Assembly: GCA_944390495.1 (NCBI GenBank)
Contig: CALXQE010000043.1
Coordinates: 1 to 64,000, forward strand
Direction: 5' to 3'
Source: an uncultured Clostridia bacterium
GTDB lineage: Bacteria > Bacillota > Clostridia > UBA1381
DNA: 64,000 bases
Part shown: positions 62,713 through 64,000 of the stretch, one piece after another
Numbering within the stretch: the first letter of the stretch is position 1
Layout: each line of letters begins with the position of its first letter
Position numbers and translations under genes: made by a program
The notes under the pieces: model-generated
What the model saw: only the letters and a program-made list of their open reading frames with translations
What the model was told of the DNA's origin: nothing
Database searches by the model: none

Positions 62713-63546
62713 ATGGAAAAATTGAAAAATATATATGAAAAAGTTCAGACAATAATTTCTAAAATAGCCGGCGATGAAATAGGAATATACGCTGCACAGG
62801 CATCTTTTTTCCTTATGATTTCGTCAATTCCATTTTTACTGCTTTGCTTTACTGTTATTAAATCTTTTATAAACATTGACCTGCAAACTTTTATTCACAC
62901 TATAAATTCCTATGCACCGCCGCAGGTAAGTATGTTTTTAACAACAATTATAAATGAACTGTTTAGTAAAGCTTCCAATGCTCCTGTAATATCAATCTCA
63001 GCCGTTACAACGTTGTGGCTTGCTTCAAAGGGCGTTATGGCACTTTTTACAGGTCTTAACAGAATATACAACGCACCCGAAAAAAATTATTTTTACAGAC
63101 GTTCTATGTCCTTAATATATACTCTTATATTTATAGCCGCACTTATATTAACAATCCTATTCTTTGGTTTCGGAAACAGAATAGAAGAAATCTTAAGCAG
63201 AAAATATTATATAATTTCTGTTATTTTCAGTCTTTTCCTTGAACTGAAAACAGTTATATTTGTTATTTATCTTACATTAATTTTCGCACTGTTTTACAGA
63301 TTCTTGCCGAAATACCAAAACAAATTTTCTCATCAGCTCCCCGGTGCTCTTTTTTCAGCTATCGGCTGGATGGTTTTTTCACACATTTATTCGATATATA
63401 TAGAGAATTATTCTAACTATTCATACGTTTACGGCTCTGTTGCCGCTATCGTGTTTTTAATGCTATGGCTGTATTTTTGCATGAATATTTTTCTATATGG
63501 TGCAAGGTTTAATAAATTTTTGGAAAAACGATTTTTTAAAAAATAA
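62713..63546 (+). CDS. YihY/BrkB-family inner-membrane protein
   Basis: About 277 residues with six spans. The opening AAQASFFLMISSIPFLLLCF and the later ALFYRFLPKYQNKFSHQLPG and IVFLMLWLYFCMNIFLYGAR are hallmarks of the YihY (formerly ribonuclease BN-like) family. Its role is unclear. The Met at 62713 follows CGGAG; the frame to 62674 adds residues without a ribosome site. Single gene. Confidence 0.88.
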   Translation: MEKLKNIYEKVQTIISKIAGDEIGIYAAQASFFLMISSIPFLLLCFTVIKSFINIDLQTFIHTINSYAPPQVSMFLTTIINELFSKASNAPVISISAVTTLWLASKGVMALFTGLNRIYNAPEKNYFYRRSMSLIYTLIFIAALILTILFFGFGNRIEEILSRKYYIISVIFSLFLELKTVIFVIYLTLIFALFYRFLPKYQNKFSHQLPGALFSAIGWMVFSHIYSIYIENYSNYSYVYGSVAAIVFLMLWLYFCMNIFLYGARFNKFLEKRFFKK

Positions 63547-63621
63547 AGCTGTTATTTTGATTTGTTTTATGGTATAATATTCTTATGTTATGAAACAAAA
63601 TTTCAGTTTGGGGGTGTGCTT

Positions 63622-64000
63622 ATGACATTTGATATTTTTGTATTTAACCAGCAGGAGCTGGAAAATGCACTAAATGCCGGGCACACTTCAATCGGTCTTT
63701 GTGATAATGAATTTTTTCTCCCTTCATTAAAGGGCATTACATATATTGCAATAGGTAATGTACAAGCATTTACTGACTTATGTGCAGAAGAATTTGAAGA
63801 TATTAGTTGTATTGGTTTTACACCGATATATAAAGAAAAACCTTCTGCATGTATAAATGTATGTACACCATCTTCTTCAAGTTTTATATCTTCTTATCTT
63901 GTATCAAGTTATACATTGATGTACGAATATGAATACGAGTATGAAAATGGTTCTTTTAGCACATCGTATATAACCTCTTACACAACATCCTTTTTAACAT
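63622..64000 (+). CDS. Unrecognised protein with Ser/Tyr repeats, cut by the right edge
   Basis: The first 126 residues are visible, from an ATG at 63622 with GGGGGTG upstream. Residues 1-80 look like a small folded domain (TFDIFVFNQQELENALNAG, LPSLKGITYIAIGNVQAF). From about residue 84 the composition changes to Ser/Tyr/Thr repeats: SSSFISSYLVSSY, then EYEYEYE, then TSYITSYTTSF, with a period of about four. Codons vary between repeats, so it is protein-level and not recent slippage. Function unknown; surface or self-assembling segment possible. Confidence 0.65.
   Translation, partial: MTFDIFVFNQQELENALNAGHTSIGLCDNEFFLPSLKGITYIAIGNVQAFTDLCAEEFEDISCIGFTPIYKEKPSACINVCTPSSSSFISSYLVSSYTLMYEYEYEYENGSFSTSYITSYTTSFLT

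Follow-up and report, generated by a model that had tools for sequence, protein, structure and literature searches.

At the 3' end of the window (the whole stretch of DNA analyzed, that is, the first 64,000 bases of a contig that runs to position 77871), an open reading frame starts with an ATG at 63622 on the forward strand and continues to a stop codon at contig position 64104, encoding a protein of 160 residues. The original prediction described it as a truncated repeat protein. It has this appearance because the window edge cuts the reading frame while the contig carries on: the frame stays open past position 64000, and the protein is whole in the genome. The locus comprises the following features:

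62713..63546, forward strand: YihY/BrkB family membrane protein (PF03631, 3.6e-52), the upstream neighbor in most of the ladder family
63611..63617, forward strand: GGGGGTG, resembling a ribosome-binding site, 5' of the ATG (read from the sequence)
63622..64000, forward strand: putative acceptor-like partner protein of 160 residues, with its stop codon outside the window (sequence and homologues)
63622..63846, forward strand: N-terminal domain "B", residues 1-75, with a small beta-rich fold (predicted model and domain matches)
63871..63912, forward strand: first ladder, SSSSFISSYLVSSY, residues 84-97 (sequence)
63922..63945, forward strand: YEYEYEYE insert, residues 101-108 (sequence)
63952..64000, forward strand, on to contig position 64029: second ladder, SFSTSYITSYTTSF..., residues 111-136 (sequence)
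Contig 64115-64951, just past the window: DUF6734 gene of 278 residues, 10 bases 3' of the ladder gene

The N-terminal domain of the protein is followed by SSSSFISSYLVSSY, YEYEYEYE, SFSTSYITSYTTSFLTSYTTSYSTSF and the C-terminus VNGYGINLI. The segments SSYLVSSY, YEYEYEYE and TSYITSYTTSF are present as initially described and, beyond the last of these, the ladder, which is of the Ser/Thr-Ser-Tyr/Phe type, goes on as LTSYTTSYSTSF. Chance does not account for it, as two measures taken over residues 83-140 exceed all 5000 shuffles: pairs of Tyr/Phe at a spacing of four (11, with 3.4 expected) and S[YF] (10, with 4.4 expected). Selection on the protein had been read from varied codons. All six serine codons are indeed used in the gene; threonine, however, is mostly encoded by ACA (8/10) and tyrosine mostly by TAT (8/11), which makes the variety of codons only partial. 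Better evidence comes from seven pairs of close homologues, in which the dN/dS of the ladder plus C-terminus is 0.07-0.18, similar to the values for the N-terminal domain and for the neighboring gene. Values this low are firm sequence support for purifying selection on the ladder.

In the structure model, the N-terminal domain is predicted to be folded, as had been proposed (pLDDT about 88-95 for residues 1-70), and the ladder to be disordered (pLDDT 35-46). The ladder protein has no match in Pfam or NCBIfam, nothing convincing in the PDB by sequence and, by fold, no PDB match below E 0.9, the weak matches that did appear being to beta-helix lyases. Domain B likewise matches no known enzyme in Pfam, NCBIfam or the PDB (by fold), an outcome that leaves the original prediction unrefuted on this point. 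The fibrous or self-assembling structure suggested by the original prediction fared worse. The regular serine-aromatic tetrapeptides and their strict spacing would suit an unmodified structural ladder; however, the ladder is predicted to be disordered, it is replaced elsewhere by (SG)n or by almost nothing while the predicted glycosyltransferase encoded downstream stays, a simple hydropathy check revealed neither a signal peptide nor a membrane segment, and no secretion gene was found nearby, all of which makes a structural role highly improbable. The absence of a signal peptide and of a membrane segment suggests that the ladder protein resides in the cytoplasm.

Homologues of the ladder protein were found in 20/60 relatives with a single-sequence query and in slightly more with an alignment query. 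Across the family, the N-terminal domain is conserved, the Ser/Tyr/Gly region is variable and the C-terminus is nearly invariant; YEYEYE inserts of a similar kind recur in many members. The named public records of these relatives are Clostridia, Oscillospiraceae and one Lachnospiraceae isolate, mostly metagenome assemblies, and the family is absent from the viral contigs searched. A second match in the same genome (L002) was discarded, as it covers 36 bases and has nothing to do with the ladder. Larger proteins of Clostridia and relatives also contain domain B, there preceded by a second domain, "A", and followed by Sel1 repeats or other domains. Such an A-then-B N-terminus is carried by varied proteins at L068:1225-2040, L069:70-2076, L148:445-2058 and L150:1165-2739. 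No Pfam or NCBIfam model exists for either domain; the two together may be a targeting module.

Here, the ladder and DUF6734 genes are flanked by the YihY gene and an ilvE-like gene, and these flanks vary between lineages. The YihY gene was rejected as part of the unit, since it is absent from distant cassettes. Just downstream, a probable bacterial microcompartment operon (L003:3991-8572, contig 66590-71171) contains PduL-like and RnfC-like genes and several small genes that resemble, by eye, those of BMC-domain shell proteins.

The gene that follows the ladder gene belongs to DUF6734 (PF20508; 50.6 bits, 2.3e-13, above the gathering cutoff of 27 bits). The Pfam entry gives no function for this family, and nothing on its function was found in the literature searched. 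Its structure model has a mean pLDDT of 93.4, and the best PDB fold matches (Foldseek) are GT-A glycosyltransferases: YeGT (1.2e-5), glycogenin-2 (1.3e-5), XXYLT1, UGGT and PaToxG. The TM-scores against known glycosyltransferases are only 0.35-0.49 and, therefore, a fold class rather than a named family is assigned; by sequence, no convincing match was found in the PDB, so that the likeness is one of fold. Two motifs, D102xD104 and H231xxG234, are invariant in the diverse DUF6734 members with available sequence, including a very distant canonical one outside the branch. The GT-A fold (in the predicted model), the DxD motif and the metal-binding histidine region are thus all present, and the DUF6734 neighbor is probably a GT-A glycosyltransferase, which would transfer a sugar from a nucleotide sugar. 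The original prediction had advised looking for modification enzymes or secretion genes downstream: a predicted enzyme of the former kind lies 10 bases on, and no secretion gene was found.

No DUF6734 gene was found in plasmid and phage collections, and the search of viral contigs yielded one phage contig (IMGVR_UViG_3300042922_001482), in which a tail-fiber gene is followed by two tandem DUF6734 genes (L195:3189-6766), possibly dedicated to tail-fiber glycosylation. In genome G345, a canonical DUF6734 gene lies within a contractile-injection-like cluster with Tail_P2_I and baseplate-like genes (L076:3014-11973), where one further product looks, by eye, like a DUF4157 protein. These other members of the family lie beside phage tail-fiber or injection-system baseplate genes and not in glycan loci, as might be expected of an enzyme that acts on proteins.

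The class and phylum were searched by the enzyme, not by the ladder, and the upstream gene was then read; most of the divergent partners were hence found without selection for the tag described below. All 36 tabulated partner proteins nevertheless carry the C-terminal tag GYG[ILV][NHDE][LI]I. Every genome found with this DUF6734 branch (36/36) encodes a GYG-tag protein, 31 immediately upstream (the two genes overlap by 4 bases at one extreme and lie about 55 bases apart at the other) and 5 unlinked. The five unlinked pairs belong to genus g15 (L097-L101), where DUF6734 follows an O-methyltransferase-like gene (and an MltG-like gene) and the tag partner lies elsewhere in the genome. One cultured relative with the cassette is the isolate MD329 (VIQV01000029, L054).

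Independently, 61 relatives were scanned with a DNA pattern that encodes the tag and a stop codon directly after it; this gave exactly one match in 21 of the 22 enzyme-positive genomes. In the 22nd, G027, the tag reads GYGLNLI and uses a leucine codon left out of the pattern. Among the 39 enzyme-negative relatives, the pattern matched in two, G002, with a true tag, and G041, with GYGLKFI, which is not the tag; reversed-pattern controls over the relatives gave zero matches. The true tag is therefore present in 22/22 relatives with the enzyme and in 1/39 without it (Fisher's exact 1e-15, a value inflated by relatedness and uncorrected for kinship). In a class sample of 191 genomes, the strict tag was found in 10/10 enzyme-positive genomes and in no enzyme-negative one; the near-matches GYGLKII, GYGFKLI and GYGLNVI fall outside the tag pattern. 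The tag and its pairing with DUF6734 are solidly established, and, within DUF6734, only this branch has the GYG-tag partner. In G002, whose assembly is 87% complete, a ladder protein with the tag is encoded (L030:2412-2966) while DUF6734 is undetected, either because the enzyme was lost or because sequence is missing.

Lineages keep the glycosyltransferase and the tag while exchanging the N-terminal domain and the repeat. The repeat takes the form of (S/T)S(Y/F), of (SG)n or of a few serines only. The partner in G349 has (TSYL)n...GYGLELI; that in G024 has a ladder of about 80 residues ending in GYGINLI. In family f188, a new N-terminal domain precedes (SG)n and GYGLELI or GYGLDLI, and G697 combines an "A"-like N-terminal domain (by eye) with an SSF ladder and GYGIHLI. 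The G405 partner, with domains A+B (by eye), ends in SGSGFGGYGLELIDAR, which places the tag three residues from the end; in the same genome, the DUF6734 gene is interrupted by an IS30-type transposase gene (L160:3462-5175). The shortest versions, in G731 and G021, count about 60 residues, end in GGYGLNII and GGYGIHLI and are very poor in serine; a multi-site ladder is therefore not essential. The tyrosine of GYG is invariant across all partners, and it is the sole tyrosine kept in the short, ladder-free versions.

A modified peptide was the better of the two ideas in the original prediction, since the constant partner of the ladder is a predicted glycosyltransferase, although peptide chemistry of the RiPP type finds no support here. 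If the N-terminal domain were a leader and the ladder a core peptide destined for modification, excision and export, one would understand a short gene adjoining a modifying enzyme and a variable core after a conserved N-terminal domain. However, the invariant part is the C-terminus, and leaders are swapped or missing across cassettes; neither a protease, a transporter or exporter nor another RiPP enzyme was found beside the cassette, whose neighbors differ between lineages. We regard a RiPP-like product as very unlikely.

A two-gene unit for protein O-glycosylation is the probable explanation of the cassette: DUF6734 would recognize the GYG tail and glycosylate hydroxyl residues of its partner, most likely serines. 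The enzyme and the tag are constant, and the serine-rich stretch is constant in composition, not in sequence, which suggests that the tag serves for docking and that the tail is glycosylated. The ladder protein would thus be the dedicated substrate of the glycosyltransferase, bound through GYG[ILV][NHDE][LI]I, and the sugar would pass from a nucleotide sugar to hydroxyl residues of the disordered ladder. Serine is favored as acceptor, since no other residue type is common to all tails, whether SSY/TSY, SSF, SGSGSG or the short S-G forms. Tyrosine is a possible alternative, given the invariant tyrosine of GYG and closest folds that include tyrosine glycosyltransferases. The N-terminal domain appears interchangeable and probably sets the place of the glycoprotein in the cell.

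Several observations weigh against O-glycosylation of the partner. The likeness of DUF6734 to known glycosyltransferases is by fold only (TM about 0.35-0.49), the pair is unlinked in five genomes, the ladder of G002 comes without a detected enzyme, few serines are present in the G731 and G021 partners and the co-occurrence statistics are inflated by relatedness. It might also be that the glycosyltransferase acts on a different acceptor and that the GYG protein activates or scaffolds it. In a further reading, the GYG protein would be a regulator or localization adaptor of an enzyme that modifies another target, as its constant 1:1 pairing, the two serine-poor partners and the membership of the N-terminal domain in a broader protein set could indicate. 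Such a role leaves unexplained both the purifying selection on the serine-rich repeats and their repeated appearance in different sequence forms, and we judge it distinctly unlikely.

A glycogenin-like primer, whose GYG tyrosine (or ladder tyrosines) DUF6734 would glycosylate so as to start a polysaccharide, also seems unlikely, though less so. Glycogenin is among the best fold matches, the top match, YeGT, is a tyrosine O-GlcNAc transferase (PMC11152714), and the GYG tyrosine is retained even in partners devoid of a ladder. On the other hand, with its Ile/Leu-rich composition and fixed C-terminal position, the tag resembles a docking motif, and the serine repeats, which are under selection, would be left without an explanation. 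A specific link with glycogen is not apparent either: almost every relative has glgA, whether or not it carries the cassette, and co-occurrence with so near-universal a gene is uninformative.

Known systems resemble the proposed O-glycosylation pair in part. YeGT, a tyrosine glycosyltransferase that transfers O-GlcNAc (PMC11152714), and PaToxG, whose folds the DUF6734 model matches best, are tyrosine-glycosylating DxD GT-A enzymes acting on proteins; they are, however, host-directed effectors, whereas DUF6734 is paired here with a self-encoded partner, and no sequence similarity to them was detected. Glycogenin (GT8) shares the GT-A fold (1.3e-5) and a protein acceptor. It glycosylates itself, while the enzyme and putative acceptor of the cassette are encoded by separate genes; no sequence match was found.

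In the serine-rich repeat protein (SRRP) systems of gut bacteria, cytoplasmic glycosyltransferases, GtfA/GtfB, are paired with a serine-rich protein, and a long signal peptide and accessory Sec genes are also present (PMC6973325). As in the SRRPs with GtfA/GtfB of streptococci, staphylococci and lactobacilli, a serine-rich, low-complexity protein is encoded together with its own cytoplasmic glycosyltransferase (PMC6973325). The cassette differs from these in lacking a wall anchor, an accessory Sec system and a long signal peptide, in having a single glycosyltransferase of another family (DUF6734) and a much smaller protein, and in its C-terminal GYG tag, a feature not described for SRRPs. Neither an N-terminal hydrophobic segment nor a SecA2/Y2 export locus nor a GtfA/GtfB pair was found. 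The cassette would work like a protein O-glycosylation pair, outside the SRRP family.

No description of the ladder/DUF6734 cassette was found in the literature searched. More tentatively, with chances that we place slightly below even, it may represent a previously undescribed class of intracellular bacterial glycosylation, in which DUF6734 docks on a C-terminal GYG[IL]x[LI]I and modifies a freely evolving serine-rich tail. Addition of the tag would make a protein a substrate, N-terminal domains would be exchanged, and the same enzyme family would serve phage tail fibers and contractile injection systems. For the uncharacterized DUF6734, the cassette, which ranges over gut Clostridia and one more distant relative, provides a likely function as a protein glycosyltransferase, together with a likely substrate and recognition tag. 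To our knowledge, bacteria offer no described precedent for O-glycosylation directed by a short, portable tag at the C-terminus of the substrate; if real, such a tag would be potentially useful for glycoengineering.
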